Below, piece after piece: positions 2-23,281 of a stretch of DNA of 64,000 nucleotides (position 1 is its first letter; the number at the start of each line of letters is the position of its first letter). The notes under the pieces are model-generated. The model did not search any database, was not told where the DNA came from, and was given only the letters and a program-made list of their open reading frames with translations. Source of the DNA: Actinomycetota bacterium (GTDB lineage: Bacteria > Actinomycetota > Actinomycetes > S36-B12 > CAIYMF01); assembly GCA_026393115.1 (NCBI GenBank), contig JAPLAU010000008.1, positions 124,001 through 188,000 of the forward strand. The letters are read 5' to 3'. The translations under genes and the position numbers were made by a program.

Positions 2-994
2 TTCGGCCTGCCGCTGTGGTCGTTCGCACTCACTGCGACCGATGCCAACCGTTGGGCGATTCGTCTGGCCCGACAGGTGACTGCGCGACCCAAGATCTTG
101 GTGTTCAACTACTGCTACCACGGTTCCGTTGACGAAATCTTTGCGCTGGGGCAACCGGACGGCCACACGGTGTCGCGACCTGGCAACGTGGCGCCTCCTG
201 TTCCGCTCGACCTGACAACGCGAGCTGTCGAGTTCAATGATTTGCCGGCTTTGGAACGCGCTCTCGCGCACGGTGATGTGGCGGCGATTTTGATGGAGCC
301 GGCGCTCACCAACGTCGGCATTGTGCTGCCCGAGCCCGGTTATCTCGACGGTGTACGACGGCTCGCAACGCAGTACGGAACGCTGCTGATGATCGATGAG
401 ACGCACACGTTTTCCGCGGGCCCTGGTGGAATGACCAAACAACTCGGCCTCGAGCCCGATATCTTCATCATCGGAAAGTCCATCGGCGGCGGAATTCCAA
501 GCGGTGCTTACGGCTTGTCACAGAAGGTCGCCGACATGGTGACTCATCACACGCAGACCAGCGATGTCGACATCATCGACGTCGGTGGAGTGGGCGGAAC
601 GCTCGCGGGTAACGCGATGTCGGTGTCGGCAATGCGCGCGACACTGGAGCATGTGCTTACTGACGATGTGTGGCCGCCAATGATCGCGCTCGCGACGTCA
701 TTCACGGAGGGTGTCGCTGACGTGATCGAGCGATACGACCTGCCGTGGTCGGTAGCGCAGTTGGGTGCTCGCTCGGAGTATCGATTCGCTTGGCCAGCTC
801 CGCGCAATGGAAGTGAATCGGAGGACGCGGCTGATGACGACATCGAAGAATTCCTGCATCTGTTCTGCGCGAATCGAGGTGTGCTCATCACGCCGTTCCA
901 TAACATGGCGCTGATGTGTCCGGATACGTCCGAAACTGATGTCGAGCGTCACACTGAGGTGTTCGAAGACGCGGTGCGCACACTGCGCGGATAG
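2..994 (+). CDS. Class III aminotransferase, PLP-dependent (5' partial)
   Basis: The frame is open from the window edge, so the N-terminus is outside; about 330 residues are visible. It belongs to the fold-type I class III aminotransferases (glutamate-1-semialdehyde aminomutase-like group). Visible landmarks in order: a TDANRWAIRLAR helix, the YHGSVD loop, MIDETHT (Asp contacting the pyridine nitrogen of PLP) and GKSIGGG with the Schiff-base lysine, followed by GGTLAGN. The GTG at 77 lies inside the conserved N-terminal part and is not the start. It ends two bases before the convergent phosphatase gene. The amino donor and acceptor cannot be decided. Confidence 0.9.
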   Translation, partial: FGLPLWSFALTATDANRWAIRLARQVTARPKILVFNYCYHGSVDEIFALGQPDGHTVSRPGNVAPPVPLDLTTRAVEFNDLPALERALAHGDVAAILMEPALTNVGIVLPEPGYLDGVRRLATQYGTLLMIDETHTFSAGPGGMTKQLGLEPDIFIIGKSIGGGIPSGAYGLSQKVADMVTHHTQTSDVDIIDVGGVGGTLAGNAMSVSAMRATLEHVLTDDVWPPMIALATSFTEGVADVIERYDLPWSVAQLGARSEYRFAWPAPRNGSESEDAADDDIEEFLHLFCANRGVLITPFHNMALMCPDTSETDVERHTEVFEDAVRTLRG

Positions 995-996
995 TT

Positions 997-2553
997 CTAG
1001 TCGCGTGCGATGGCGGTGAGGGTGACATCGTCGCGACGCCAATCGACCGCGCGTTCGCGAGCAGCGGCGAGTACTCGCTCGACGACTTCCGCGGGGGGTG
1101 CGTCGTCGGCGACTGCGGCATCGATGAGCGCAATGAGGCCGTCGTCTCCGAGTTCATCGCCCGCGGCATTGTGCGACTCAACGAGCCCATCGCTCCAGGC
1201 GAGCAGGAGATCTCCGCGATACAGGGTTTCGGTGCGACACGTCCAAGTTCCTCCGAGACCTGAGACGAGTGGGCCGGTCGGATCAAGTCGGATCGGTGAT
1301 CCGTCAGCGCGACGAAGCAGCGGCGGTGGATGTCCGGCGTTGGCCCAGGTGGTCGCTCCGGTTGCTGGGTCGACCACCATCACCGCGCACGTGGCGAACT
1401 GGGCTTCCTCGTCAGCGAACGCGCGCGCCGCATGTTCAAGTGCCGTGTCAGGCGCGAAGCCGGTGGCGAGCGCACTTCCGATGACGTTCTTGAGGCGTAC
1501 GGCGCCGATACCGGCGGCCGGTCCGTGGCCGGCGACGTCGGTCACGATCACGGCGGCGCGGCCGTCGGGCAAGTGCATCACGTTCCACCAGTCACCGGCG
1601 AGTACACCTTCGGCTGGCTGCAGTACTCCGGCAATGGAGAGTCCCGGGACGGTCACGCTGTCGCTGGCCTCAAGTTCAGCGCGAATAGCCGCGACGACGG
1701 GGCCTTGCTGGGTGAGACCTTGGCGGGCCGCGGTTGCTTCATCAAGTTGCAGGACGAGTTGTCGGCGCATGGCCTCTGCGTCGATGCCGGTGGCTTCAAG
1801 TTCGGGCGGACCACTGGGATCGATGGGGTGGTAGCGACCCTCGGGTGTGGCCGCGGTGCGCAGCTGCGCGCGTAGGTGGTCGAGCGGATTGAGGACCCAT
1901 TGACGAAGTGCGGCGAGTCCGGCGAGTAGCAGGAGCAGCAGGATGAGTCCGGCGATGACGAGTGCCCATGCGAGTTTGCTGGCGAAGGTGCTGAAGTCTT
2001 CGACTTGCTGGGTGCGACGGTCGTCGATGAGTCGCTGCAGTGCGATCGCCGATCCGGTCATGCGGTCGTATGCGGTGAGGGCTTCCGTGGATCGGGTGAC
2101 TGCGGCGGCAGATCGGGTAGCCCCCATCTTGAGCAGAGGAAAGACTTTGTTCGGATCGGCTGCCTGCCATGCGATGACTGAGTTGGCGCTTGCTCCCACC
2201 GCCGCGCTGATTCCAGCGTCATCGGGGAATGAGTCGTTGATGACAGTGAGGGATTCCTGCGCCAGCGTGAGTGACATGTCATAACACGCCTGCGGATCGC
2301 CGCATCCCGCGACGACGGTCTGACTTGGTTGGCCGAGCGCTGCATCGAGAACGGCGATGGAGACGTATCCGTTGGCGTCTGAGTAGGCGGTCGAGAGAGT
2401 GCGACTGGCGTCGGCGGCTTGCTGCAGGGTGGTTGTGATCGCTCGGCTCGAGTCGGCGGCTCGCCAAAAGCGGTAGGTGAGCCAGCCACCTAACCCCACG
2501 ATCACGAGCACGCCGATCACCGTGACGGCAGTGACGCGTTGGCGCAGGGTCAT
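997..2553 (-). CDS. Membrane-anchored SpoIIE/PP2C-type protein phosphatase
   Basis: 518 residues. An N-terminal membrane segment (about 10-30), an extracytoplasmic sensor region, a second membrane segment near 193-215 and a HAMP-like linker are followed by a SpoIIE-type PPM serine/threonine phosphatase domain (about 300-518). Metal-binding signatures seen are AGDWWN, VTDVAGHGPAAG, NAGHPPPLL and LLLAWSDGLVES, ending DDVTLTAIA. Such proteins dephosphorylate anti-anti-sigma factors or other phosphoproteins in response to an external signal (family knowledge). No anti-sigma factor or kinase gene lies beside it. The start ATG is exactly 6 nt after a minus-strand TACCCT, which fits a leaderless transcript. 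Confidence 0.88.
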   Translation of the reverse strand: MTLRQRVTAVTVIGVLVIVGLGGWLTYRFWRAADSSRAITTTLQQAADASRTLSTAYSDANGYVSIAVLDAALGQPSQTVVAGCGDPQACYDMSLTLAQESLTVINDSFPDDAGISAAVGASANSVIAWQAADPNKVFPLLKMGATRSAAAVTRSTEALTAYDRMTGSAIALQRLIDDRRTQQVEDFSTFASKLAWALVIAGLILLLLLLAGLAALRQWVLNPLDHLRAQLRTAATPEGRYHPIDPSGPPELEATGIDAEAMRRQLVLQLDEATAARQGLTQQGPVVAAIRAELEASDSVTVPGLSIAGVLQPAEGVLAGDWWNVMHLPDGRAAVIVTDVAGHGPAAGIGAVRLKNVIGSALATGFAPDTALEHAARAFADEEAQFATCAVMVVDPATGATTWANAGHPPPLLRRADGSPIRLDPTGPLVSGLGGTWTCRTETLYRGDLLLAWSDGLVESHNAAGDELGDDGLIALIDAAVADDAPPAEVVERVLAAARERAVDWRRDDVTLTAIARD

Positions 2554-2565
2554 GAATCGAGGGTA
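2554..2565 (-). promoter_or_regulatory. Leaderless -10 element of the SpoIIE phosphatase gene
   Basis: On the minus strand TACCCT is followed by exactly 6 nt (cgattc) and the ATG. The same hexamer-6-nt-start geometry recurs at about ten places in the window, which supports transcription starting at the start codon. Confidence 0.55.
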
Positions 2566-2653
2566 GTGGGCGGGGGTTGGGTGGCGCGTGGGCTACCGTC
2601 GGCGTGGACTGTTCTATGTTAGCCCGAAGTAGCACCTAACACACGGGGGAATC

Positions 2654-3127
2654 ATGAGATCGAAGAACCTCGCACTCGCGGTTGTCGTTGCCGTGGCAGG
2701 CATTGGTCTTTCAGGCTGCTCGGGAGGAACATCGGCGGCACCGGTAACAGTTACTGCCCCACCGGTCACCCAGACGACAACTCAGACTGCAACGGCAACT
2801 GCAACTGCAACTGAGACGGCAACAGCGACTGCCACTGCCACTAAGACAGAAACTCCGACGCCGGAATCCACCGAGTCGTTTACTCCGGAGCCGACCCCCG
2901 CATCAGTGAAGGTTCCCAATGTCGTTGGCAAGAATTATCAAGACGCACAAGACATTTGGCGAGCAGCCGGTTTGCTTGTGATGCCCGCGGAAGATGCGAC
3001 GGGCGCGAACCGTATTCCAGTGATCGACTTGAATTGGGTCGTGGTCAGTCAATCGCCGAAGGCAGGAACTGTTGTGCCTCGGGATAGTGAAGTGACGGCA
3101 ACGGTCAAGAAATACACCGACGGATAG
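2654..3127 (+). CDS. PASTA-domain lipoprotein
   Basis: 157 residues. A signal peptide ends in the lipobox LSGC (Cys22), so the protein should be lipid-anchored on the outer face of the membrane. A Thr/Ala/Glu-rich linker (about 30-84) made of near-repeated ACN/GCN codons precedes one PASTA domain (about 86-154; PNVVGKNYQDAQDIWRAAGL, then SQSPKAGTVV). PASTA domains bind peptidoglycan fragments in kinases and PBPs (family knowledge); no kinase is attached here. RBS GGGGGA lies 4 nt before the ATG. A shorter paralogue follows at 3185, so this is a local duplication. Confidence 0.85.
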   Translation: MRSKNLALAVVVAVAGIGLSGCSGGTSAAPVTVTAPPVTQTTTQTATATATATETATATATATKTETPTPESTESFTPEPTPASVKVPNVVGKNYQDAQDIWRAAGLLVMPAEDATGANRIPVIDLNWVVVSQSPKAGTVVPRDSEVTATVKKYTDG

Positions 3128-3172
3128 TCGATTTTCGGAATGCAGTTTCAGCGGGGACGAGGTTGCGCGCGC

Positions 3173-3184
3173 TACCGTCGGGTC
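3173..3184 (+). promoter_or_regulatory. Leaderless -10 element before second PASTA lipoprotein
   Basis: TACCGT at 3173-3178, six bases, then ATG at 3185. This decides the start in favour of 3185 over the upstream in-frame ATG at 3140, which would put charged residues in front of the signal peptide. Confidence 0.55.
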
Positions 3185-3556
3185 ATGATGCGTCGTCTGA
3201 TGTTCGTTTTGGTGAGTGCCGCGCTGCTGTCGGCCTGCGCGTCGACGCCCGCGCCCCCGCCGGTTACGGTGACGGTCACCACGACCGCCACGGTGGTGGT
3301 GACGCCGACGGGTGTTCCGGTGGGCACTCTCGCAATGCCACCGTTGGTGGGATTGGGGTTGCAGGATGCTCAGGATCAACTGCAGTCGCTCGGGTCGTTT
3401 GTGTTGAACCAAGAGGATGCGTCGGGTCAGGGCCGGCACCAGCTGATCGATTCGAATTGGAAAGTGTGCTCGCAGGATCCGGCCGCGGGGTCGTTGATCT
3501 CGGTGACGTCGATCGTGACGTTGCGAGCGGTGAAGAACGAGGAGACGTGTCCGTAG
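3185..3556 (+). CDS. PASTA-domain lipoprotein, paralogue
   Basis: 123 residues from ATG 3185. The signal peptide ends in LLSAC (Cys18), followed by a short Thr/Val-rich linker with repeated VTVT units and a PASTA-like domain with PPLVGLGLQDAQDQLQSLG. Both this protein and its neighbour at 2654 have an acidic EDA turn and an LIDSNW / VIDLNW segment before SQ(D/S)P, so they arose by duplication. Predicted surface lipoprotein; ligand unknown. Confidence 0.8.
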   Translation: MMRRLMFVLVSAALLSACASTPAPPPVTVTVTTTATVVVTPTGVPVGTLAMPPLVGLGLQDAQDQLQSLGSFVLNQEDASGQGRHQLIDSNWKVCSQDPAAGSLISVTSIVTLRAVKNEETCP

Positions 3557-3592
3557 TCTAGGCAAGAACGATGACGCGGTCGCCGTCGCCGA

Positions 3593-3760
3593 ATGCTCAT
3601 CATGGTTGACGCTGCCAAGGAAGTGGTGCTTCTCGTACACTGGCGAAATCCACTGCACGTGGTGGTTGTCATCGATCGTTGGCGACGAGAGGAACGTGTC
3701 GTCACGCTCTACGAGCCGGACGGTGACCTCTGGTCGAGGGACTTTCGGAGGAGGCGCTAA
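3593..3760 (+). pseudogene. DUF4258-like toxin, N-terminally truncated
   Basis: A 55-codon frame (ATG 3593 or 3602) encodes what resembles only the C-terminal half of a DUF4258 protein: VLLVHW, NPLHVVVVID, TLYEPDGDLW, ending in a run of Arg (FRRRR). Full-length members are about 80-100 residues with an N-terminal helical HxxxR-type part; an in-frame TGA at 3572 closes the frame upstream. The TAA overlaps the ATG of the YgiT-type gene by one base, the usual layout of DUF4258-YgiT pairs. It is either a decayed toxin or a short functional variant. Confidence 0.55.
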
Positions 3761-3999
3761 TGCGTTGCGCTACATGCGATAGCGGTGTTCGCGTTGACGT
3801 TCGTCGGGCGAAGATGTCCGAGCGCGATGACCATGCGGCCGTGGTGCTGGGAGTACCGATGCAGGAGTGTCTTGTGTGCGGTGAGCGTTTTCTCAGCGAG
3901 GAAGTGGCAGAGGCGCTGCTGCGAATCATGGACGAACTCCTGCGGAGACCCGAAGAAGTCGCGTCCATTCACTGGGACGACGCGATTAGCGCTGCGTGA
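3760..3999 (+). CDS. YgiT/MqsA-type zinc-finger antitoxin-like protein
   Basis: 79 residues. Two CxxC pairs (Cys3-x2-Cys6 and the ECLVCGE pair) form the YgiT-type zinc finger, followed by a helical tail (FLSEEVAEALLRIMDELL). In MqsA this domain neutralises the toxin. The C-terminal DNA-binding HTH of MqsA is absent, as in the short YgiT class paired with DUF4258 proteins. It overlaps the upstream DUF4258-like remnant by one base. It ends head-on with the ligase gene at 4019. Confidence 0.75.
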   Translation: MRCATCDSGVRVDVRRAKMSERDDHAAVVLGVPMQECLVCGERFLSEEVAEALLRIMDELLRRPEEVASIHWDDAISAA

Positions 4000-4004
4000 C
4001 GTCA

Positions 4005-4025
4005 GGTGTGACAGGAAGTCACACC
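4005..4025. terminator. Hairpin between convergent YgiT and ligase genes
   Basis: GGTGTGAC at 4005-4012 and GTCACACC at 4018-4025 make an 8-bp perfect stem with a 5-nt loop. It covers the stop codon of the minus-strand ligase and sits 6 nt after the YgiT stop, so it could end transcription from both sides. There is no clear T-tract. Confidence 0.45.
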
Positions 4026-5908
4026 ACTTCCTCCCAGCCCTTCTTCACGTTTTCGGTCACCATCGCGTCAGCAAGTCGCGTCGCCTCATCCTCCGTCGGC
4101 GCGAGACGCACTTCTCGGTTGAGTGGCGACTTGCGGGTGCTGCTGTAGTCAGTCCAATGCACCACGTACGCCGGGTACTTACCCGTTGCTTCCTTGTTGG
4201 TCTTCCACACGAGCAGTTTGCGCACGTCGGTCTTTTCGCCACTGCGCTTCACCCACACCTGACGTCGCACGATCTCGCTCGGTGCCGCGCTACGTCCGGC
4301 ATCGGGATCGGGCACCGACAGGTAGGGCTCAAGTTGACGCCAGCCGGCGTCGAGCAACGTCGGCAACTTGTCGTCGCGAATGCGCTGCAGCACTGGACCG
4401 AGTGAGGCAACGGAATCAATCTGCGCAACGGCGCGCCATCCGGCATCGGGCTCGTAGTTCAAGCGCGCCTGTCGAATGTGTTGACCGCGCGAATCCTCGG
4501 CTTGTAGATCTGAGACTCGCACCTCGACAACAATCGTCGGTTCAACAAAGCGATACATGATGCTGTCGCCTGCATGCCGATACGCGCTGGGCTTCTGAAT
4601 CGCGATGAGACGTTCGTACAGCGCAACCCGTGCAGCGGAATCACCAAGGTTGCTCACCGACGTGAACGGCACCCAACCGCCGTCGGGATGAGCGACCGCG
4701 ACAAGAATTGAACGAATCTCGGTTGCGCCAGACTCGTTCTTGCGTTCGGTGTAGGCCACGATGACGGCGTCGACCTCGGTGGTGGGCTTGACCTTGAAGG
4801 TGCGCCCGTCGCTCGCGCGCACCACGATTCCTTCAGCACCGCCTTGCGCAACGATCGTGTCGTAGGCCTCGGCCACCTGGCTTAGTGACTCAACTGGTTC
4901 CGTGGTGACCAAACGCACGGGACCGTCGGCAGGAACGTGCTCGCGCAAGAAGGCCAGTCGATCGGCATACGCGGAGATGGCGTTCACTTCGCCGCCCATC
5001 ACCACGTCGAATGCCGCGAAGCCGAGCGGGCCGGCGGCAGGTGCGCCGGTCAGTGCAAGTCCAACATCTCCCACCCGGCCTCGTCGTCCACTCGGCGTGC
5101 TGAGTGCCTGACGAACTTTGGCGGTCAGGTCGTCGTCATCGGTGAACATGCGACAGGTGTGGCTTGCGAGCACGCGCTCCTTGAAGGCGGCGAGTTTCGC
5201 CAGACTCTCAGGGTCGGTCTCACGATGCTCGTCGGACACCGTGGCCTCGTCGGACATCACAAAGATTCGCAACGGCTTGTTGCCGGCAACGGCATGGTGG
5301 TACTCGATTTCGGTCATCGACATACCCGAGCCGGGTTCAACGTGGCCGTATCGCATTCCGATGATGCCGATGTACAGGTCGCACTCGTCGACCTTGTCGC
5401 GGATGTACTCGGCCGGTGTCACTTCGTCGGGCACGAAGTCCTCCATGCCGACGTACGTCATTCCGAGCTCCTCAACCACACCGCGAATGGCTGCACGTTG
5501 AGTCTGCATATCGCGGCTTGTCGAACTCACAAACACAGTGCGCGGAATGCCACTGGGAGGAGTGACGTGCAATTCGCCGGCAAGCACGGTGCCCTTGGGT
5601 AGTGATTCGGCAGACTTGAGAATGTCGAGTCCGCCACTGATCACACGACCGTTTGGTGCAGCGAGCAGGGTTTCGTCTTCAAGACGGCAGAGGTACCAAA
5701 GTTCACCGTCGAGTTTGGGTGACACCCAGTACGGTCCACCGCCGATGCGGTGCGGAATGTCGGAGGAACCGACTGCGAGATAGCGCGAGGCAACAGCACT
5801 TCGGTACGTGTCGAAGGTGCGTGTGAGTTCGGTATCGGTCACCGAGCCGATCGTGTAGATGGTGGCGGGGCCGAGGGGTCGGCCGCCCTCAGTGCGGTAG
5901 CGGTTCAC
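4019..5908 (-). CDS. ATP-dependent polynucleotide ligase with DUF4062 domain inserted in the nucleotidyltransferase core
   Basis: 629 residues, GTG start. Ligase/nucleotidyltransferase motifs are seen in order: motif I KLDG (K65, D67, G68; the usual Arg of KxDGxR is Leu70), NGRVISGG, motif III AGELHV (110-115), motif IIIa GFAAFDVV (297-303), motif IV EGIVVR (359-364) and motif V FKVKP (371-375). Between motifs III and IIIa sits a whole DUF4062 domain (about 122-260): TVFVSSTSRDMQ, GMEDFVPDEVTPAEY, CDLYIGIIGMRYG, MTEIEYHHA. An OB-like part (about 378-470) and a C-terminal part (about 545-629) ending VKKGWEEV, faintly WGR-like, follow. DUF4062 is otherwise typical of STAND NTPase conflict proteins. 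Last gene of a three-gene minus operon; overlaps its neighbour by 4 bp (GTGA). Substrate (DNA or RNA) is not known. Confidence 0.8.
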   Translation of the reverse strand: MNRYRTEGGRPLGPATIYTIGSVTDTELTRTFDTYRSAVASRYLAVGSSDIPHRIGGGPYWVSPKLDGELWYLCRLEDETLLAAPNGRVISGGLDILKSAESLPKGTVLAGELHVTPPSGIPRTVFVSSTSRDMQTQRAAIRGVVEELGMTYVGMEDFVPDEVTPAEYIRDKVDECDLYIGIIGMRYGHVEPGSGMSMTEIEYHHAVAGNKPLRIFVMSDEATVSDEHRETDPESLAKLAAFKERVLASHTCRMFTDDDDLTAKVRQALSTPSGRRGRVGDVGLALTGAPAAGPLGFAAFDVVMGGEVNAISAYADRLAFLREHVPADGPVRLVTTEPVESLSQVAEAYDTIVAQGGAEGIVVRASDGRTFKVKPTTEVDAVIVAYTERKNESGATEIRSILVAVAHPDGGWVPFTSVSNLGDSAARVALYERLIAIQKPSAYRHAGDSIMYRFVEPTIVVEVRVSDLQAEDSRGQHIRQARLNYEPDAGWRAVAQIDSVASLGPVLQRIRDDKLPTLLDAGWRQLEPYLSVPDPDAGRSAAPSEIVRRQVWVKRSGEKTDVRKLLVWKTNKEATGKYPAYVVHWTDYSSTRKSPLNREVRLAPTEDEATRLADAMVTENVKKGWEEVV

Positions 5909-6639
5909 GACTCCTCCCCAGCATCGATCTTGGCATCGAGTTTGGCGGGGCGCTTAAGTTCCATGTTCGACAGGTGAAGCAGTAGTTGGTAGCGATCGCC
6001 GTCGACGCGACCTTCGAGAAATCCGCGGTAGGGCGAGCCGTTGAGTTGGAACACCAAGGGGCCCTTACCGTCTTCGCCCGAGCCGAGTAGCACCACTGAT
6101 TCCTTCTCGGCCAACTCGGAGGCCATGCCGTGCAGGAAGTCGAAGGTGACACCGTCGACGTGGCGCAGTTGCAGCGAACGCTTCACAGCAAACTTGCGAG
6201 CCATGTCTGCCTTTGGCATGAGTCGACCGGTCCATCGCACAGGGATCGAATCGTTGATCGTCGCAACAACATCAACGGGAGCGCGACGTTCGGTCTCTTC
6301 GCCGGCGGCGGAGTACGTCACTTCCACCACTTCGGGTGCGCAGTACATCGGTTCGCCGCTGCTGCCCACGAGCACCGATTGCGTAACGTCAATCAGTCGG
6401 CCCACGGCTTCAAGATCGACTTCGGGGTCGCCATCGACAAGTTGCTTGTCGTAGACACCTTCGAAGCGGGCTTGCAGGTCGGCGTCAAGTAGTCCTTCGC
6501 CAGCGGTGACGTAGCGACGGAAGATGACGGGCTGACCTTCTTTGCCGGAGGTCGGACCTGGTGGCGTCGAGATCGATACTGCCAGAACGGTTGCATCGCG
6601 GTTAGACGCGTTTGCGAGGTGCATGCGTTGAAGAGTCAT
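5905..6639 (-). CDS. Unknown protein coupled to the ligase-DUF4062 gene
   Basis: 244 residues, no recognised family. The N-terminus MTLQRMHLANAS leads into a beta-rich region. A positively charged stretch (MPKADMARKFAVKRSLQLRH) and the motif FDFLHGMASEL precede a C-terminal part with LVFQLNGSPYRGFLEG that reads like a small barrel. There is no signal peptide or membrane segment, so it is probably cytoplasmic. Its stop overlaps the ligase start (4 bp), and its RBS (AGGGAA) lies over the stop of the gene before it. It is therefore translationally coupled and probably a partner or substrate-recognition subunit of the ligase; that is inference from context. Confidence 0.6.
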   Translation of the reverse strand: MTLQRMHLANASNRDATVLAVSISTPPGPTSGKEGQPVIFRRYVTAGEGLLDADLQARFEGVYDKQLVDGDPEVDLEAVGRLIDVTQSVLVGSSGEPMYCAPEVVEVTYSAAGEETERRAPVDVVATINDSIPVRWTGRLMPKADMARKFAVKRSLQLRHVDGVTFDFLHGMASELAEKESVVLLGSGEDGKGPLVFQLNGSPYRGFLEGRVDGDRYQLLLHLSNMELKRPAKLDAKIDAGEES

Positions 6640-6650
6640 GTCGGCGTTCC

Positions 6651-7256
6651 CTAGAACATCTCGAAGTCGAGGTCGTCGTCATCGGAATCGTCGCCCGCGG
6701 CATCCGACACCGAGGTGACGGTGGCGAGCTCCTGCCATTCAGGTGTGGTGGGTTGGCCAATGAGCGCCCAATACCCTGCGTCGTTCGCGAGAAGCATTGC
6801 CTTCTCAGCGCGGTAGTCGGGTCGGAAGTTGAAGGTGAAGGAGTAGACCGAGCCTTGCTGAAGTGCGTCTTTGAGTGAGTCGGGCAGCGTCTGCGCATCG
6901 AGTGCGTAGGTGGTGGCCACTTGGAGGTCAAGAAGGTCAGTGGCAGTGGCTTCGATGAGTGGTTGCGAGACGCCGACGGTGCTGGGTACTTGTCCGGCAG
7001 GCGTTCCATCGGGGTTGATGCCCTCAAGCTCGCCTTGGGGAACCCATCGGCCGTCAGGGAGGAAGTAGCCCTGGCCCGTCATCCCCGAGCGCAGCAGCAT
7101 CGAACCGTCATCGAGGAGCGATGCGCGCGTGCATGGAGTGCCGGTTTCGTCGAGTGCGAGTCTGCGTCGTTTTCCGTAGATCGCTGCGCGGTCGACTGCT
7201 GTGAATGCAAACACGGCCTCATCGCCGTTGAGCGTCACATTGATAGTGCCTGCCAT
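6651..7256 (-). CDS. Unknown protein with acidic tail, first gene of the ligase-DUF4062 operon
   Basis: 201 residues, no recognised family. The opening MAGTINVTLNGDEAVF reads as beta strands. A WVPQGELEGINPDGTPAG segment follows, then FTFNFRPDYRAEKAMLL. The last 25 residues are strongly acidic (DSDDDDLDFEMF), a tail type often used to mask a nucleic-acid-binding surface or bind a partner. The start has the island's GGGGG-AACG-ATG ribosome-binding pattern. It is separated by 11 bp from the next gene. Diverges from the lipoprotein gene at 7412. Confidence 0.6.
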   Translation of the reverse strand: MAGTINVTLNGDEAVFAFTAVDRAAIYGKRRRLALDETGTPCTRASLLDDGSMLLRSGMTGQGYFLPDGRWVPQGELEGINPDGTPAGQVPSTVGVSQPLIEATATDLLDLQVATTYALDAQTLPDSLKDALQQGSVYSFTFNFRPDYRAEKAMLLANDAGYWALIGQPTTPEWQELATVTSVSDAAGDDSDDDDLDFEMF

Positions 7257-7411
7257 CGTTCCCCCTGTCCCGTTGAGGGGAGTCTAAGAGGTTGAGGCAC
7301 AGGTTGTTTGGGTTTGGGGGAATCCTCACGCGGCGATTGTGTTCAATCGTCTTGAAACCGCCACATCGCCGAAACTCCTCATGCCAAGATGTGGGTATTG
7401 GGGGTAATGAA
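7257..7411. other. Divergent intergenic region
   Basis: 155 bp between the ligase operon (minus) and the lipoprotein (plus). It holds the GGGGG RBS of each gene (minus strand 7261-7265; plus strand about 7399-7404). No clear operator palindrome was found. Confidence 0.4.
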
Positions 7412-8131
7412 ATGTATTCGCGAGTGAACGAAATCCACGGCAGGCGCCTGACGCTCTGGGCTTCCTTGGTCTGTGTACTGGCGGTTGCGACGACGACGCT
7501 CTCTGGCTGCACGGCCCCGAATAAGCCGTCGAGTCAACCTGCGTCTTCCTTGATGACCACGTATTCGCCTTCGGTCCCGTCCGCAAAGCCAACGCCTACC
7601 AAGAAGTTGACCGCTTCCGAGAAGGCTGCTGTGGCGCGAAAGGAAGCTGCCCGTAAGAAGAAGGCGGCCGCGGCGAAGAAGAAGCGTGAGGCTGAAGCTC
7701 GGGCGGCTGAGGCATCGGCTTCGGCCGAGGCTCAAGCCCAGGCCGAGGCCGAAGCGTCTGCGGCGGCAGAGGCCGCCGCCGCTGCAGAAGCGAGTCCGAC
7801 ACAGGACTCAAACTCCAACAGCAATTCAATGGGATGGCGAGATTTAGGGGACTTCTCGTACACCGTGCCGGACACCTATGACTGCTATGCCGATGCAGGA
7901 TTCGGTTGCGGTGTGATGATGGTGCGCGCAAATACAGACTGCCCAATCGGCATCTACGTGAAGGTTGCGCATTACTCGGGCATGACCATCGTGGGTTGGC
8001 AAAACACAAGTTCCGGCCCGTTGGCGGCAGGTGAAACAGCGCGACTCGACTTTCCATTCACCGAACCCGGCGATACCGGGGGAGGCTTCGGGATGGATTG
8101 GGACCTGACTGACGAGTACGGCTGTTCCTGA
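7412..8131 (+). CDS. Lipoprotein with Ala/Lys/Glu coiled coil
   Basis: 239 residues from ATG 7412, chosen because GGGGGT lies just upstream and the signal peptide then begins near the start. The lipobox is LSGC (Cys33). Residues about 55-130 are an Ala-Lys-Arg then Ala-Glu-rich helix, a likely rigid coiled coil; an Asn-Ser repeat (NSNSNS) links it to a C-terminal globular part with four cysteines (YDCYADAGFGCG, TDCP, EYGCS), probably two disulfides outside the cell. The family is not recognised. It lies between two minus-strand ligase operons and may be a cargo gene. Confidence 0.7.
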   Translation: MYSRVNEIHGRRLTLWASLVCVLAVATTTLSGCTAPNKPSSQPASSLMTTYSPSVPSAKPTPTKKLTASEKAAVARKEAARKKKAAAAKKKREAEARAAEASASAEAQAQAEAEASAAAEAAAAAEASPTQDSNSNSNSMGWRDLGDFSYTVPDTYDCYADAGFGCGVMMVRANTDCPIGIYVKVAHYSGMTIVGWQNTSSGPLAAGETARLDFPFTEPGDTGGGFGMDWDLTDEYGCS

Positions 8132-8160
8132 CGCGAACTCGGCTGAGGAGGCTCTGACAC

Positions 8161-11894
<3,734 letters not shown>

Positions 11895-11910
11895 TCACAC
11901 CTGATGGTTC

Positions 11911-11942
11911 GGACTGTAGTGCAGTGGCCACTGCGCTAGCCT
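11911..11942. promoter_or_regulatory. Divergent promoters with a 14-bp palindrome between ligase and MoxR genes
   Basis: GCAGTGGCCACTGC at 11921-11934 is a perfect palindrome. On the plus side TAGCCT (11937-11942) is a -10 leading to a short leader with RBS GAGGGGG; on the minus side TACAGT (reverse complement of 11913-11918) is a possible -10. A dimeric regulator bound at the palindrome would touch both promoters, tying the ligase-nuclease and MoxR-VWA operons together. Inference from layout. Confidence 0.5.
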
Positions 11943-11961
11943 CGCGTGGTGAGGGGGATTC

Positions 11962-13068
11962 ATGCTGAATCGAGATGACTACATCGCCACGGCCGAGGCG
12001 CTGCATGCGTGTGTTGAGGCGCGGGTGCCGGTGATTCTGTGGGGTCCACCTGGCCAAGGAAAGACGTCGGTCATTCGCGACCTTGCAGTGCGCCAGCAAC
12101 GTCACATTGAGATCTTGTTGGCGAGTATCCGCGAACCGCAAGACTTCGCCGGCCTTCCTTCCATCTACGACGGTGCCATGTCGCTCATTCCCCCGAACTG
12201 GGCGGCTCGACTACGCGACGATGGCAACGGCATTCTCTTCACCGACGAGGTCAACACCGCACCTCCCGCTGTTCAGGCCGCTCTTCTGCGTGTGTGTCTC
12301 GACAAGGTCGCCGGCGACTGCGAACTCGGCGAGCGCACGAGCATCATCGCCGCGGCGAATCCGCCCGAGCAGGCAGCCGATGGTTGGGATCTCGCGCCGC
12401 CTCTCGCCAACAGGTTCTGTCACCTCGACTGGTCGCTACCGAGTGACGTCGTCAGAGACGGTCTCGCGGGTCAGTGGCCTGTGATCGAAATGGCACCCGC
12501 GAAGCCCGCAGCCGTTGAGGCTGCACTCGGGCGAGAACGCATCATGGTTGCTGGTTTCCTCACTGGGCGGCCCGATCTGACCACCGTGCTTCCGAAAGCG
12601 ACCTCCGAGCAGGGCCGCGCGTTTCCAACGCCACGCTCGTGGGAGATGGCGATCACCGTGGGCGGCTGGTCGGAAGCGCTGGGCCTGGACGCCACGTCAC
12701 TGCGCATGTTGATTCGCGGCTGCGTGGGTCAGGGAGCATCAGCCGAGTACCTCACCTATCGCGACAACCTTGACTTGCCCGATCCTGAATCGCTGCTGGC
12801 AGCGCCCACGAAGTTCAAGCCACCTAAGCGGGCCGATCAGGTGTACGTGATCGGAGCTGGAGTACTCGCCGTCGTGCGTAACAACACCACCGAGGCGCGT
12901 TGGCACGCAGCCGGACAGGTGCTGGAGCGAATTGCGAGTGCAGGCAATCCGGATATTGCGGTCGCCTTTGCACGCGACTGGTTGAAGATGCGGCCCGGTG
13001 ACGCAATGCCCGATAGCGCGTTGCTGAAGGCGCTCATTCCATTGCTTCAGGAAGCGAAGATGATCTGA
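11962..13068 (+). CDS. MoxR-family AAA+ ATPase
   Basis: 368 residues. Walker A GPPGQGKTS (28-36), Walker B ILFTDEVN (91-98), a sensor-1 Asn in AAANPP (133) and an arginine in ANRF (151) identify a MoxR/RavA-type AAA+ ATPase. These hexameric ATPases remodel partner proteins and are usually paired with a VWA protein that acts as adaptor. Here the VWA gene starts 4 bp downstream, so the two form one unit. RBS GAGGGGGA. The divergent neighbour is the LigA-like ligase. Confidence 0.9.
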   Translation: MLNRDDYIATAEALHACVEARVPVILWGPPGQGKTSVIRDLAVRQQRHIEILLASIREPQDFAGLPSIYDGAMSLIPPNWAARLRDDGNGILFTDEVNTAPPAVQAALLRVCLDKVAGDCELGERTSIIAAANPPEQAADGWDLAPPLANRFCHLDWSLPSDVVRDGLAGQWPVIEMAPAKPAAVEAALGRERIMVAGFLTGRPDLTTVLPKATSEQGRAFPTPRSWEMAITVGGWSEALGLDATSLRMLIRGCVGQGASAEYLTYRDNLDLPDPESLLAAPTKFKPPKRADQVYVIGAGVLAVVRNNTTEARWHAAGQVLERIASAGNPDIAVAFARDWLKMRPGDAMPDSALLKALIPLLQEAKMI

Positions 13069-13072
13069 GGCC

Positions 13073-14347
13073 ATGGCAGCCCAGGCTGACGTTCTCGAGG
13101 CGGCGCAACTGCGTCTCATGGCCGCGCGCATTGTTGCGCAAGGTCGCTGGCCGTATCTCTCCACGTTGCTCTTCAGTCTTCGCCTTGTTCCGATGTCTGC
13201 AGAAGTTGTTCCCACGATGGCGGTCGACGCGGGCTGGCGAATGTATTACAACCCCGAGTTCATCGTGGCCGAGAGCGTCGACGCATTAGCAACGGTGCTG
13301 CTGCACGAAGCGATGCACTGTGTACTTTCACATGCGGTTCGCTATGACGCCATCGATTCAGGTGATGGCAGCCGTGATGTGTGGAACATTGCGGGCGATT
13401 GTTCAATCAATGAAACGCTTGACGAAGCGCGCATGCCGTGGACGAGAAGCGTGACGCCTCTGCGTATCTCGCAGTATGTGAAGCAAGGCCTCACTCCAGG
13501 GATGACAACCGAGGCGATGTATCTCAAGTTGATGGAGAAGGAGTCGGGAGTAGGGACTCTTCTTAGTAGGCGAGGTCAGAAAGTTCCGGATTGTGGATCC
13601 GCCGCCGATCGCATTGCACGTGAGTACGAGTTGGCGCCGGACGACGACGATGCGCCAGCAGCGGGTCGTGGTCAACAGGAGACCGTGATCGATCGGGTGG
13701 CGAGTGAGGTGCTCGCATCATCGCGTAACGCCGGCTCGGTTCCAGCGGGTTTGTTGCGTTGGGCGCAGGAGCATCTTGATCCGAAGCTTGATTGGCGCCG
13801 AATTCTCGGCGTGCGTTTGCGGCGCGCAGTTGCATCCGTCGCGGGGCGCCGCGATTACACCTACTCGCGGCCGTCACGACGTCAGGGCGCGATGCGTCAG
13901 CAAGGACTCTCTGTCGTGCTCCCTGCGATGCGTCAACCAGCGCCGCCGAGGGTGGCGATTGTTGTCGATACGAGCGGAAGTATTTCGTCACTTGAATTGC
14001 GGCAGTACATCGGTGAAGTTGCTGGAATCGTTCGCGCAGTCGGAGTGAGTCAAGGAGTGTGGGTAATTCCGTGTGACTCGGCCGCGGGACGTGTGCAGAG
14101 GCTGAGGTCGGTTGCGAGTGTCGACTCGCTGGAACTCACGGGTGGTGGTGGAACCGACATGGGCGCAGGTATCAAGGCTGCGCTTCTCATTCGACCGACA
14201 CCGCAGGTGGTTGTCGTGGTCACTGACGGGTACACCCCGTGGCCTGCGGAGAAGCCGCGCGGCCTTGAGCACGGAATTGTGGTGCTGAGTGAAGATTCGC
14301 AGCAGAAGGATGTTCCTGAGTGGCTCGATTCATTGGTGATCGACTGA
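13073..14347 (+). CDS. DUF2201-type metallopeptidase-VWA protein
   Basis: 424 residues. The N-terminal part carries the zinc-metallopeptidase motif HEAMHCVLSH (His78, Glu79, His82, with His87 as likely third ligand). The C-terminal VWA domain has a full MIDAS: DTSGS (299-303), GGGGTDMG (Thr361) and VVTDGY (Asp385). A helical linker with an acidic patch joins the two. Such proteins work with MoxR ATPases: the AAA+ partner may load or activate the protease. Substrate unknown; candidates are neighbouring proteins or an invading factor. Confidence 0.88.
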   Translation: MAAQADVLEAAQLRLMAARIVAQGRWPYLSTLLFSLRLVPMSAEVVPTMAVDAGWRMYYNPEFIVAESVDALATVLLHEAMHCVLSHAVRYDAIDSGDGSRDVWNIAGDCSINETLDEARMPWTRSVTPLRISQYVKQGLTPGMTTEAMYLKLMEKESGVGTLLSRRGQKVPDCGSAADRIAREYELAPDDDDAPAAGRGQQETVIDRVASEVLASSRNAGSVPAGLLRWAQEHLDPKLDWRRILGVRLRRAVASVAGRRDYTYSRPSRRQGAMRQQGLSVVLPAMRQPAPPRVAIVVDTSGSISSLELRQYIGEVAGIVRAVGVSQGVWVIPCDSAAGRVQRLRSVASVDSLELTGGGGTDMGAGIKAALLIRPTPQVVVVVTDGYTPWPAEKPRGLEHGIVVLSEDSQQKDVPEWLDSLVID

Positions 14348-14475
14348 ACAACATCGGTAGCCGGAGTCAATTCGATCGCCGAAACTCCCGCTTACCGCTA
14401 CTTTTCTTGCGCCTGGAATAGGCGTGCCATACTGCCCGGCAGTGGAAGTCACACCATGTTGTTTTGTAGTAAGGG

Positions 14476-14489
14476 TTGAGGGGAAACTA
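14476..14489 (+). promoter_or_regulatory. RBS deciding the PDZ-YbjQ start
   Basis: GAGGGG at 14478-14483 then AAACTA and ATG at 14490; the alternative start at 14424 has no such sequence. Confidence 0.5.
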
Positions 14490-15092
14490 ATGGGGGCGCA
14501 TCATTCGCTTGGCATTCACACAAAGGGCGATCGCGACCTTCGTGTGACGGAAGTGATCAAAGGAGGTCTGGCCGAGGAACTCGGCATTCAGCGCAAGGAC
14601 TTGATGCTGCGAATTCAAGGTCAACCGGTTGAGTCCACTCTGGACGTGCGTAGAGGGCTGATTGGATGCGAAGACGGCGAATGGTTTGAAGTAGTAGTTC
14701 GTCGCAATGGGCAGGAGTTGACGCTTCGCGCTGAGCTTGTTGAAGAGTCGTACCTTGGTGGTGGGGGTACCTCTCCGACGCGCGGCAAGATCGTGGTTTC
14801 GACCCTCCACGTGATACCGGGGTACCACGTGACGTCATTCGTTGGAATGGTGAGCGGGATCGGTAGCCGGAGCGGTGCTGACGCGCTCACCAAAATGAGC
14901 GCCGCATATCGCGATGCTGAAGCCTCGTTGATTGAACAAGCTGCCGGAATCGGCGCCAACGCGGTTCTCGGTGTGCAGGGCCAGGCGACGGGCGCAGGTA
15001 CAGGTGGCATCTTGGGTGACGCGATCGCATATTCCCTGTTTGGATCGGCAGTTGTCATCGAACGAGACACCCGCAAGTCGGCGGCGGAGTGA
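14490..15092 (+). CDS. PDZ-YbjQ (UPF0145) fusion protein
   Basis: 200 residues from ATG 14490, preceded by GAGGGG at a good distance; an in-frame ATG at 14424 lacks an RBS. An N-terminal PDZ domain (about 15-83: VTEVIKGGLAEELGI, GQPVESTLDVR) is followed by a YbjQ/UPF0145 domain (about 100-190: STLHVIPGYHV, FVGMVSG, AGIGANAVLGV). PDZ domains bind C-terminal tails of other proteins; YbjQ forms pentameric rings of unknown function, sometimes called heavy-metal-binding. It may be a scaffold for proteins of the island; two nearby proteins end in the same TGIL tail. Confidence 0.82.
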   Translation: MGAHHSLGIHTKGDRDLRVTEVIKGGLAEELGIQRKDLMLRIQGQPVESTLDVRRGLIGCEDGEWFEVVVRRNGQELTLRAELVEESYLGGGGTSPTRGKIVVSTLHVIPGYHVTSFVGMVSGIGSRSGADALTKMSAAYRDAEASLIEQAAGIGANAVLGVQGQATGAGTGGILGDAIAYSLFGSAVVIERDTRKSAAE

Positions 15093-15131: not shown

Positions 15132-16211
15132 TCAGGCTCGCCCCCGATAGCGTCCGAGTATGGTCGTCGTGAGCGTGGACAAGACCTGCGGCGGTATCCA
15201 GACTGACGGCAATGCTTCCGTTGCTGCTCGGTAGGCGTCGATCACGAACCGCTCACGCTCACCCGGAGTGCTGCCCGTCTGCAGCATCAACGTTTCGCGC
15301 AATGGGTGGTGTGACCGAATCAGGTCGTTGTTGCGCTGAACGAGCCATGGCATCCAGAGCTCGTGGGGCGCGCGACCAGACTTGCTGCTGTTACAGGGTT
15401 CGCACGCCAGCACGAGATTCCATACAGCGTCGACGTCCGGCCCATTCCACCCGCGCTTCTTCAGCACAAAGGGCAGCACGTGTTCAACGACCGGTCCTAA
15501 CCCACATTGTTCGAAGGCTTCCCCGCAGTATGCGCAACGACCATCCTGATAGCCATTGAATGCGGGAACAACGCCGGTGACCGCGCGCCGACGTGCATCC
15601 GAACCGATCGTGAGGATTCCCAGGTCGGAATCAACACCGACTACGGGGGAAATCAAACCCGACGTCACTCCGGTAGACCACGCGGTTTCAACCAGATGCC
15701 AGCGGGCTGCTGTTTCGGCGTCGAGGTCGGTGCGCAGTGCCATCGCGAGCGCAAACATCTCATCAGTGAGAACTACTCCCTGTACGGCACGGTCCTGTCG
15801 GCGATCTTCGTAGAAGATGATCGGGGCATGAGTGCCGCCCAGTCGAGGGAAGGCCTCTACGACATTAACGAATCCGAGCTTGCGCGTTGCCTCCCACAAT
15901 TCCTGTTGGCTGATCTCGCCGTCGTTGTAAGACCGGCATGCATCGAGGAACTTGCTGCGTCCCGCGGTTGCTTGCCGCGGCTCCCGTAGCAGGGCTTGGC
16001 AGAGTAACTCGGAATAGCGAGGTGCAAGTTGTTCCAGAGTCAGCGTGCTCGACTGAGTCTGGGCGGCTAGTTCTAACAAAGTCTGGCCGAAAGCGAACTT
16101 GTACGTGGCCGAGTTTGCGCCGTAGAGGATGATGGCGCGCCACACACTTTCAGGAGTGACGATTCCCCGAGTAAAGTCCACGATCACAGTCTTAACGATC
16201 GGAGCGCACAT
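15132..16211 (-). CDS. HNH endonuclease
   Basis: About 359 residues. The C-terminal part has the HNH/McrA-type fold: CAYCGEAFEQCG, VVEHVLPF (catalytic His), WNLVLACEPCNSSKSG, with two CxxC pairs holding zinc. The N-terminal domain (WRAIILYGANSATYKFAFGQ) is shared with other actinobacterial HNH proteins but has no known function. The start is unsure: ATG 16211 overlaps the divergent MazG-like start, while GTG 16181 is preceded by AAGACT plus 6 nt, the leaderless geometry. Likely a DNA endonuclease of restriction or mobile-element type. Confidence 0.8.
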   Translation of the reverse strand: MCAPIVKTVIVDFTRGIVTPESVWRAIILYGANSATYKFAFGQTLLELAAQTQSSTLTLEQLAPRYSELLCQALLREPRQATAGRSKFLDACRSYNDGEISQQELWEATRKLGFVNVVEAFPRLGGTHAPIIFYEDRRQDRAVQGVVLTDEMFALAMALRTDLDAETAARWHLVETAWSTGVTSGLISPVVGVDSDLGILTIGSDARRRAVTGVVPAFNGYQDGRCAYCGEAFEQCGLGPVVEHVLPFVLKKRGWNGPDVDAVWNLVLACEPCNSSKSGRAPHELWMPWLVQRNNDLIRSHHPLRETLMLQTGSTPGERERFVIDAYRAATEALPSVWIPPQVLSTLTTTILGRYRGRA

Positions 16212-16563
16212 GAGTGGCCTGAACGAAGATCCCCGAGGACGTGTCGACGGCAAACTTGTGAGAGATCGAATTCCCGAGATCGTCTCAGCCCAAGGTGCGA
16301 CCTACACCGTGCGACTACTGGACGACGCTGAATTTCGTAGTGCGCTGCTGGCGAAGATCCAGGAGGAGGCCGTTGAAGCCGCCGAGGCGACAGACGACCA
16401 ACACCTTGTTGAGGAACTCGCGGATGTCCTTGAAGTTGTGCACGCACTTGCCGCGGGACTGGTCGGAGGGCTCGACAATGTTGAGGCCGCGCGAATGCGC
16501 AAACGTGCTGAGCGGGGTGGATTCGACGGGCGAGTGCTGATGAGTGATTACCGACCTGGCTGA
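16210..16563 (+). CDS. MazG-like nucleoside triphosphate pyrophosphohydrolase
   Basis: 117 residues from ATG 16210 (GGAG at 16201-16204). The opening KLVRDRIPEIV and the acid cluster KIQEEAVEAAEA...EELADVLEVVHAL match the all-alpha NTP pyrophosphohydrolase superfamily (MazG/HisE fold), where Glu/Asp residues hold Mg2+. It hydrolyses (d)NTPs to monophosphates and pyrophosphate (family knowledge). Its start codon shares two bases with the opposite-strand ATG at 16211. A second MazG-like gene lies at 34554. Confidence 0.8.
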   Translation: MSGLNEDPRGRVDGKLVRDRIPEIVSAQGATYTVRLLDDAEFRSALLAKIQEEAVEAAEATDDQHLVEELADVLEVVHALAAGLVGGLDNVEAARMRKRAERGGFDGRVLMSDYRPG

Positions 16564-16622: not shown

Positions 16623-19600
16623 TCACTTAATGCCGAGGATCGCGGCCTGGGCGCGAATCTCGTCTGTTGCCTGCGGATGTACTGACGCCGCTGATCGAAC
16701 TGCGATATCGGGATCGAGTGAAAGTACGGCGAGCAATTCCACGGGACATGCCTCCTGCTCCGCGACGGCTCTTCGCACCAGAGGATCCTTATCTCGGACG
16801 AGAATCGGTAGGGCGTGGAGGTCAGGACGCTGAGCAAGTGCCGCGCGTACATGCTTGCTTCGCGCCTTCCTCAGCAGGATGAGGGTGTCGGCGGAGGTGT
16901 TGGGGTGTAATGCCACAAGGATCTGCGGGAAGCGAGTCACTGAGTCGCCGCCCACCTCCCAAGTGACTCCAGAGGCGCGAATCTGGCCCGGAACATCGGG
17001 AGCCTGCTCATCCCACTCGTACTCCACGTGACTGTGGCTAGGAGCCGTGGCTGCGAGAGCTAACTCATCAGCGGTGGCGCTGGGGTTGCTCGCCAAATCC
17101 CATGCCTTGTGCGTGTCCATCCCCTTCGACCCACGCTTAATGGGCACCTTGCCGGGAGTCTCAGGAATGACGATGCGATACCCAGGCTGGAGTTCGAGAG
17201 TTCCAAGCACTGCGCGCAAGGGCTCGCTCAGAGTGGAGTACGCGCGCTCTTGAACCCACGAGATCGTTCGGCCGGATACTGGCAGTCTATTGCGCAAAGA
17301 AGCCTCGGAGAGAAGACCGAGTTCAAATGCTCGCATCGCCCCTTTGAGACGCAACTCGGCGATGCGTTGCTTCAGCAGGCTCGTCACGTCCTCCGATGTG
17401 AGAACTGCGGAGTAAATAGCACCGGGAGTCAATGCTTCTCGAACGTCCCACGTTTTGTCGTCGGCCAGGATGTCGCGGGCTACCTGGGGGCAACTTGTGT
17501 TGAGAGCTACTTCACGGCGAATGGCTGCAGACTTGTCTGCGGCCAATGATGTGAGTGAATCCAGAGGAGCGTCGGTGCGGGCAGCGATCAGAAGCCGCAC
17601 CTTCGCACTCTTTGATTTGGCTAACTCAGCTAGCCGCTCGGGGGGAGTGTTCCCATTTCCCGCATCCGACAATTCTTCGTAGAGATCGTCGGCTGCATCA
17701 TTCTTCTGACCTGCTTTGGTCTCGGCTTTAGCGAGATTTTCGATCACCTTGGCGCGCAGATCCTCGGGAAGATCGGCTCGACTAGCTAGCGCTCTCAGAA
17801 CTTCAACGTTGCGGCTCGCCTTGACAAGATTTATGACGTCGAGAGTGGCCATGGGTTGTGATGCCACTAGAGCCTGGATGGACGCATCTCCATTGCGAGC
17901 AAGAGTCACAAGCGTCTCGGGAGAAACGTTGGAGTTCGTTGCCGCACGTTTACAGATAGCCACGTTTGTCGGATTCTCGGAGACGAGGTGGGCGAGCGCG
18001 TCTGTTGGTGTTCTGGGGTATGACGCGATTTCGGCCGCAACTGTGTCACGGCCTTGCAGGCCTCCAACTTCAGTCAACACGGCGACCAAGCCGCGCAGTG
18101 TTTCGGCAGTAACCGCGGGGTTTCTGAACAAGGACCACTCGGGAACTTGGCCAATAAGTGTTGCGATGAGTGCCGGTGAAGCGTTGGGATTGGATGCAAC
18201 CATGGCTGCGGCGTACCGGTATTCGCTGTCCTCAGAGTCTCTCGCGAAACGTTCGAGAATCTCGGGCGGTACGAAAAGGCTAGATGCTAGTGCCTCTCGC
18301 ACATCCGATTCGGGGTCTCGCGAGAGGAGTTCAATCTCGGTGGGAGAGAGGTCTTCGCGTTTCGCGGCTTCTTCGCGTGACTTCTGGTCGTCGGTCCCTA
18401 GTCCCATCTCATTCATCCGGATGACCTCTGCGACGGACCAACCTGACCTCAGAAACTGCGCAGCCCCTTCGAGACTCACCCCCGCTGTAAGCAGTTCCTG
18501 TGCCTCTTCAGTTGTTCCGCCGTCATCGATGAAACCCATTGCGTCGTCGAGACTGGCACCCGCCGCGGCGAGGAGTAACGCGTCGTCTATGGACAGATTC
18601 GAGCGGAGGAGCTCCACCGCACTGTAAAGATCGTGATCCACCGTGAGAAGTCGAAGCCCATCATTAACTGTTCCTCGAGCCTGAAGAAAGGCGTCAGCGT
18701 CACGATGGGCCGCGCCGGCATGTTCCAAGAGGGCTCGATCTGCTTTGCGCCTCTCCTGCCGCATGATTTCGGTTGCGGCCCGGAGGTTTTCGCCTCGCGC
18801 TTGCGAGTAGATCGCTTCCTGCGTCGACCCGCCCGCCTCCAAGAACTGTGCGCAAGAAGCTAAGTCCGCGCCCCCGAGTTGCAGATAGTGGGCATCGTCA
18901 ATTGCCCCTCCAGCAGCGAGAAATGCCGCCGCTCCGCTTAGGTGCGCGCCCGCTGAGAGTAAGCGAAGTGCATCATCGAGCGATCCGCCGGCATCGAGAA
19001 ACTCCGCTGCGCCGATGAGATCGCTGCCCGAGGCGAGTAGCTGAAGTGCGCCCTCTACTGATCCCCCGGCTTCGAGGAAATCGGCCGTGCGCGCGAGATT
19101 CGCGCCTGCTGTGAGCAGTTGCAGACCATCCTCGACCGATCCATCGGCTTCTAGGAATTCGGCAACACCGTAGGAGGATTTGCCAGCTGCGGCGAGAAGC
19201 GGCAGTACGTCGTCGAGCGAGAGATGTCCCTTTGCCAACTTGTCGGCATCGTAGATAGTCCCGCCCGTTTCTAGGAGGCGCAGAAGATCGTCAACGGAAC
19301 CACCAGCTTCGAGGAATTCGGCGGCGCCGTAGAAAATACTCCCCGAGGCGTGCAAGCGAATGACGTCTTCATCCGACCTGCAAAGCTTCAGCAACTCGAC
19401 CGCTGCAGGTAAGTAGGCCCCGATGGCTTTCAGGTGCAGGATGGTAACTACCGACCCGCCGGCCTCTAGGAACTGGGCTGCATCTTCAAAGCTGATGCGT
19501 GCCTCATGAATGCGAATCGCATCATCGAGCGAACAACCGGCCACGAATAGTCTGCGCGCCTTGAATCGATCGACGCCCGCTTGGTGAAGTAGTAATGCCT

Positions 19601-19715: not shown

Positions 19716-20015
19716 ATCAATGTTCCCCCTGCTTGTCGTTTCCTCTCCGGATCCTCGCACAGCGTGGCGCTCTGTGAAGGCCCCAAGACGCTTTGGGGGC
19801 AGGTCTACAGATTGATGACCGGCCGATGCGTGCCCGTTGGCGCACTCCTGCCCATGTAGCCCCGCGGTCATTGAACGTTGCCCACATCCTCGGCGCGGAC
19901 GCCTTCGGCATTCGTATTCGGTTTCCCGATTGATGTCGTGTGAGACGCTCTAGAGACGTATTGTTCGAAGGGGTATCAACGGGATGCCTGCATGCGGTGT
20001 GTTCGGGGGTTCGGA
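19716..20015. other. Divergent promoter region, repeat protein / VWA-tubulin operon
   Basis: 300 bp without a gene. It holds the RBS of the minus gene (AGGGGG) and of the plus gene (GGGGGT at 20005-20010). The stretch 19930-19980 is comparatively AT-rich and is the likely promoter site, but no -35/-10 pair is convincing. Confidence 0.4.
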
Positions 20016-23245: not shown

Positions 23246-23281
23246 TCGAAAAGTAGCCATTCACCAGCGAGGAGCGCGCAC

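Follow-up and report, generated by a model that had tools for sequence, protein, structure and literature searches.

Bacterial nonhomologous end joining (NHEJ) has been described as the work of a Ku homodimer together with LigD, and surveys detect it by sequence (PMC7719229, PMC11936186); its distribution is sporadic (PMC7719229). Ku70/Ku80 with ligase IV offers the other close comparison, in which the Ku subunits are unlike each other. Here we describe three adjacent genes, encoding the proteins P0003 and P0002 and the ATP-dependent DNA ligase P0001, in a stretch of 64,000 nucleotides (the window; G000:C23:124001-188000) from a 3.5-Mb metagenome-assembled genome (MAG) of an actinomycetotal bacterium. 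This set of three genes, hereafter the triad, was previously unannotated and occurs in several bacterial phyla, and it looks like an overlooked means by which bacteria hold on to broken DNA ends and rejoin them, or sense such ends.

Like bacterial NHEJ (PF02735, TIGR02779), the triad places a predicted Ku core fold beside an ATP ligase of the same superfamily, and its occurrence is likewise sporadic. It differs in having two different Ku-like proteins that match neither PF02735 nor another profile, in lacking polymerase and phosphoesterase domains, in the WGR-like tail of its ligase, and in its host genomes, in most of which no canonical Ku was found. With Ku70/Ku80 and ligase IV it shares two unlike subunits, which presumably pair; however, these have only 200 to 245 amino acids and carry no vWA or SAP domains. 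A DUF4062 domain is common to the window's ligase and to Swarozyc, a TIR-like NADase antiphage system (PMC13174449) whose effector responds to the phage portal, but here DUF4062 is an insert in the ligase, no portal-binding or stalk parts were identified, and the rest of the triad family lacks the domain. Finally, WGR proteins and leucine-rich variant (LRV) repeat proteins lie near some triads, recalling WGR/LRV proteins and retron type XIII loci, but the libraries searched do not describe those systems as containing the Ku-like pair or the ligase. A literature search, whose reach did not extend to subscription papers and most preprints, found no description of a Ku-like pair, a WGR-ligase or a link to LRV proteins. 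The features of the triad are as follows.

4019-5908, minus strand: P0001 (629 amino acids), ATP-dependent DNA ligase (NHEJ-type ligase by Pfam/NCBIfam)
4022-4267, minus strand: C-terminal WGR-like domain of the ligase (hhalign)
5090-5560, minus strand: DUF4062 insert of the ligase (TIR-like NADase family; Pfam, E=1.7e-23, full length)
5705-5716, minus strand: ligase motif I, KLDG, residues 65-68, with catalytic Lys65 (alignment)
5905-6639, minus strand: P0002 (g244, 244 amino acids), predicted Ku-like subunit 2
6651-7256, minus strand: P0003 (g201, 201 amino acids), predicted Ku-like subunit 1

Inheritance of the three genes

The conserved unit consists of the genes for P0003, P0002 and P0001, and the module of the original prediction, which had treated some 10 kb around them as one undescribed conflict system, was drawn too wide. 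When P0001 was sought in 99 relatives, it was matched in G001, which belongs to the same genus, and in G082 and G047, in each case with P0002 and P0003 beside it in unchanged order. A scan of 84,980 GTDB species genomes returned 36 P0002 loci, including loci from Actinomycetota, Myxococcota, Burkholderiales, SAR11 and Bacteroidota. P0003 and the ligase adjoin P0002 in 35 of the 36, across four phyla (Actinomycetota, Myxococcota, Pseudomonadota and Bacteroidota), and the single exception is cut by a contig end; in SAR11 the order is ligase-P0003-P0002. The ligase was also present in all of 20 further regions, and P0003 in 18. Over 49 loci, the pairwise distances measured for any one of the three proteins track those for the others (correlations of 0.93 to 0.95), and the three core genes are co-inherited. 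With a family profile, P0002 was detected in 46 of 290 genomes (~16%) of Polyangia, the class of Nannocystis, and in 3 of 301 genomes of the Limnohabitans family, while among 395 genomes of the window's own class it is in effect confined to the window's genus. A quick tree mixes phyla, with partial support, and suggests transfer between them. None of the core genes had a match on the phages, plasmids or viral contigs searched, and on these grounds a mobile or phage-borne system was rejected; nor did the core match anything in PADLOC.

Of 15 same-family relatives outside the window's genus, 11 have canonical Ku (PF02735), which was not found in G000 or G001. Among 34 triad genomes it was not found in 29, and the five that have it are three Nannocystis genomes, G474 and G047. 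This pattern fits a replacement, but a large share of the genomes are MAGs.

Predicted folds and ligase motifs

P0002 and P0003 had been listed in the original prediction as two unknown coupled proteins, and indeed neither has a Pfam, NCBIfam or PADLOC family match; their Ku-like nature had gone unnoticed. AlphaFold2 models were made of each protein separately, with 28 to 30 homologues each. The P0003 model has a predicted local distance difference test (pLDDT) score of 82.7, and its best fold in the PDB is Bacillus subtilis Ku (Foldseek, 6.0e-5), with which it aligns over 152 residues at 4.4 Å (VIA-align, Z 9.7). The best PDB folds for P0002 are human Ku80 (Foldseek, 3.3e-6) and Mycobacterium tuberculosis Ku (8.1e-6), and its alignment with Ku covers 131 residues at 3.3 Å (VIA-align, Z 13.3). 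Ku thus ranked first in all four PDB comparisons, with both programs and for both models. In a comparison with predicted viral proteins, the only significant hit of P0002 was a mycobacteriophage Ku (1.8e-4; the next at 0.16). Both proteins are therefore predicted to have a Ku core fold. Because profile comparisons with Ku find nothing, this assignment rests on fold and context and is no claim of membership in the Ku sequence family; neither protein matched Pfam Ku up to an E value of 0.1, and comparison of their profiles with PDB sequences gave nothing meaningful.

Homologues of P0003 at 54 loci carry an acidic-hydrophobic tail, [DE]xLDFxM[FMLI], at or beside the C terminus, which in the window reads DDDDLDFEMF. 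Tails of this type recruit partners in SSB and Ku80, the tail of Ku80 recruiting DNA-PKcs. The P0003 tail recalls that of Ku80 and, by analogy, may be of the same partner-recruiting kind.

The ligase gene is joined to that of P0002 by a GTGA overlap. A profile of the ligase matches archaeal ATP DNA ligases (1.4e-21), and the protein contains motifs I (KLDG), IV (AEGIVVR) and V (FKVKP) and an OB domain. Across 27 aligned ligases, KxDG in motif I, EG in motif IV and KxK in motif V do not vary, and in a wider set KxDG was found in 48 of 49, the exception being L137. Judged by these residues, P0001 is an ATP DNA ligase with complete active-site motifs. The final 80 residues are conserved as well and align with WGR domains from triad loci (hhalign, probability 78%, E=1.8e-5) over 37 columns, or half the domain; no match to Pfam WGR (PF05406) was found in this tail.

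The DUF4062 domain, which the original prediction had correctly recognized within the ligase and which proved complete, lies between motif III (GELHV) and the sequence RRGRVGDV. According to a 2026 preprint (PMC13174449), the DUF4062 family consists of TIR-like NADases and includes antiphage members; our guess is that the segment SMTEIEY (5300-5320, minus strand) holds the catalytic Glu. The insert is confined to the window's genus, and the other aligned ligases of the family lack it. It was accordingly rejected as the defining feature of the system, the place given to it before.

Neighboring genes and optional partners

The genes to the right of the triad, all but two of which had been included in the 10-kb block, are listed below.

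7292-8131, plus strand: lipoprotein-like gene between the nuclease gene and the triad
8161-9861, minus strand: P0005, TM0106-type RecB-like/RNase H-like nuclease, an optional partner
9858-11879, minus strand: P0006, accessory second LigA, an optional partner
11962-13068, plus strand: P0007, MoxR AAA protein
13073-14347, plus strand: P0008, DUF2201 metallopeptidase-VWA protein
16623-19871, minus strand: LRV repeat protein of 1082 amino acids, a possible partner (Pfam LRV, 9.9e-16)

Read from right to left, the minus-strand genes run P0006 LigA, P0005 nuclease, P0003, P0002 and P0001, with the plus-strand lipoprotein-like gene, which had been overlooked before, between P0005 and P0003. The individual products had been described accurately: the open reading frames lie at the positions given for them, P0005 combines a TM0106-family RecB-like with an RNase H-like nuclease, P0007 is a MoxR AAA protein, P0008 is a DUF2201 metallopeptidase-VWA protein, and both claimed 4-bp overlaps exist, the GTGA given above and an ATGA joining the LigA and nuclease genes. 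P0006 is, as stated, a complete but divergent LigA (equivalog E=6e-162), separate from the housekeeping LigA at G000:C19, to which it is 37% identical, and its KxDG motif and zinc-finger cysteines are intact. The two bidirectional promoters that were said to tie the genes together were not borne out, as 0 sigma-70-like sites, the only type sought, were found in 4000-14500 (1.5 expected by chance).

The MoxR-VWA pair is an unrelated neighbor. It occurs without the triad in G004, G007, G008, G011, G038 and G043; G047 carries the triad and has no match to the VWA protein, and no MoxR-VWA homologue was found beside a triad outside the window's genus. Since pair and triad occur apart, the pair was rejected as a part of the module, and the idea that a MoxR-VWA protease controls or executes the response fails with it. 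A check for a conserved neighborhood thus came out differently for the two halves of the block: the three core genes keep a common one, but the MoxR-VWA homologues are scattered. With the bpMoxR profile of MoxR-vWA ternary conflict systems the score was 22.3 bits, under the cutoff of 27.

Some partners of the triad recur but are optional: a second LigA, a RecB-type nuclease, repeat proteins, and domains of the TIR or TIR-like NADase type. The distance between the triad and a LigA-type gene is under 10 kb in the window, L039 (directly downstream), L045 (directly upstream), L048, where the LigA bears a WGR domain and has an intact KxDG, and L064; two LigA genes each were found in G000, G001 and the Burkholderiales genomes G461, G462, G465 and G479. 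The triads of L036 and L037 stand next to TM0106-type nucleases that are fused to an SF1 helicase, and L048 has a TIR_2 protein with homologues in L045 and L064.

The repeat proteins beside the triad are of the ankyrin (Burkholderiales), DUF4116 (SAR11), RCC1 (myxobacteria) and LRV (Actinomycetota, Bacteroidota) families. In a check of 14 genomes, LRV matches at threshold occurred only in five triad genomes, on the triad contigs, and in none of seven relatives without the triad; the window's LRV gene falls below the per-repeat threshold of this check and is clear on the whole protein. In G047, all 14 LRV matches are on the 37-kb triad contig. There, at L022:5305-7008 (G047:C138), about 8 kb from the triad, a reverse transcriptase that resembles those of type XIII retrons and carries a fused WGR domain is followed by an LRV protein. 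A diversity-generating retroelement was considered for G047 and rejected, since the reverse transcriptase is of retron type XIII and the region checked has no template/variable repeat pair. The ankyrin proteins L044:6830-9355 and L064:4770-9323 are 85% identical over 323 amino acids and then only at the repeat level (24 to 25%), while their triads are 97 to 99% identical. In the SAR11 loci L052, L054 and L056 the triad is 92 to 93% identical in DNA, but L054 carries another variant of the DUF4116 gene next to it.

Farther along the window, an HNH protein with weak similarity to PtuB (Septu) and to the Cas9d HNH domain (15132-16253) lies beside MoxR-VWA-PDZ genes. An operon-like run at 20252-30253 encodes a VWA protein, a tubulin-like Tubulin_2 protein and two large unknown proteins, and defense-like genes at 30293-37879 encode a GmrSD C-terminal/Excalibur protein, an SLFN-g3 helicase and an HNH_2 nuclease. 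In the sister genome, L024 (G001:C215) has, at 40-4769 downstream of the ligase, genes for a PDZ protein and, judged by eye, a primase/polymerase-like protein, after which the 3' end of the ligase gene appears a second time; this is either an insertion accompanied by duplication or an artefact of binning.

Readings of the triad and their meaning

Taken together, the co-inherited genes, the two predicted Ku folds, the intact ligase motifs, the match to NHEJ/archaeal-type ligases, the scarcity of canonical Ku in triad genomes, the WGR-like tail and the WGR, LigA and nuclease neighbors argue for an end-binding and end-joining role, and on balance the triad is probably a divergent end-joining or end-sensing module made of a Ku-like pair and a ligase. 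P0002 and P0003 would pair with each other in the manner of Ku70/Ku80, whereas canonical bacterial Ku is a homodimer, and this heterodimer would be loaded at double-strand DNA ends. The ligase would be kept in place through its WGR-like tail, through the acidic peptide at the C terminus of P0003 or through both, and would seal the ends with ATP. Where a second LigA and the RecB/RNase H-like nuclease are neighbors, they may act on flaps or nicks, processing and sealing them. In the window's genus, the DUF4062 insert could couple end sensing to NAD+ depletion and so switch a repair complex to defense. The earlier idea of an unnamed module acting on nucleic acid ends therefore survives, by prediction, for the ligase and the two formerly unknown genes, and not for the whole block.

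Several results weigh against this interpretation. Sequence-level homology to Ku had to be rejected, as hhalign found no relation between either protein and 16 canonical Ku sequences (probability 0.2%), and it found none between P0002 and P0003 (4%). The TM-scores to Ku are modest (0.4 to 0.5), and the P0002 model has a pLDDT score of 70.8 and is poor at residues 28-102. Two of the 20 further regions have no recognizable P0003, no LigD polymerase or phosphoesterase domain was found in P0001 or in the window neighbors scanned (1-30 kb), and many triad genomes are MAGs, whose incompleteness could fake the absence of canonical Ku. P0002 also resembles SPOC domains, which have the barrel in common with Ku, only slightly less (Z 10.8 to 12.1) than Ku itself. 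With the missing sequence link, this similarity would suit proteins that are not Ku at all and have a SPOC/Ku-type beta-barrel for protein binding, the ligase then having two regulatory subunits, for example, in nick repair. We find this very doubtful, as Ku came first in every PDB comparison and adjacency to a ligase is a separate clue to Ku.

A primary role in defense, in which the Ku-like pair senses free phage or plasmid DNA ends and triggers an effector while ligation is secondary or regulatory, is unlikely. The effector would be the DUF4062 NADase insert in the window's genus, the TIR protein of L048 and its homologues in Burkholderiales, and the nuclease in Actinobacteria. The antiphage activity of the DUF4062 family (PMC13174449), the patchy phylogenetic spread and the nearby defense-like genes (the retron XIII reverse transcriptase in G047; the SLFN helicase, GmrSD C-terminal and HNH genes at 30-38 kb) speak for it. 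However, triads do not share a conserved effector: beside most of them no NADase is recognized, and neither PADLOC nor phages, plasmids and viral contigs gave a match to the core. The neighborhood is rich in defense genes; a conflict role is only possible, and DNA end joining is at least as likely. That the whole 10-kb nuclease-ligase-MoxR-VWA block forms such a system has next to no chance of being right: its genes are physically close in the window's genus, but MoxR-VWA is unlinked elsewhere and DUF4062 is genus specific. The triad might instead rearrange or diversify the adjacent tandem-repeat genes by cutting and rejoining repeats. Four repeat families, each in its own clade, the confinement of LRV described above, LRV units that are in some cases 86 to 91% alike in DNA, the ankyrin match that stops after 323 amino acids beside near-identical triads, and DUF4116 proteins only 40% identical beside L052 and L054 triad blocks that are 93% identical in DNA would all be in keeping with this. 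Against this, no tandem DNA repeats were detected in the window's repeat genes or in those of L047 and L064, and the single region examined for a template/variable repeat pair had none. The RCC1 adjacency may reflect background in myxobacteria; moreover, fast evolution fits any sensor protein, and we consider diversification highly improbable.

To return to the favored end-joining or end-sensing module, its most far-reaching form would be an anciently diverged bacterial heterodimeric Ku serving as a DNA-end-triggered immune machine, whose pair grips ends while the ligase heals them or the TIR-like insert or a neighboring TIR protein shuts the cell down; this extension is speculative and quite unlikely. 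If the module is what it appears to be, SAR11, Myxococcota, Burkholderiales and Actinomycetota would include carriers of a Ku that sequence searches miss, probably made of two subunits and accompanied by a dedicated ligase, so that bacterial end joining would be undercounted, and it would provide a small bacterial model for Ku heterodimer function. Should the NADase insert be active, DNA-end sensing would, in addition, be linked to NAD+-depleting immunity.

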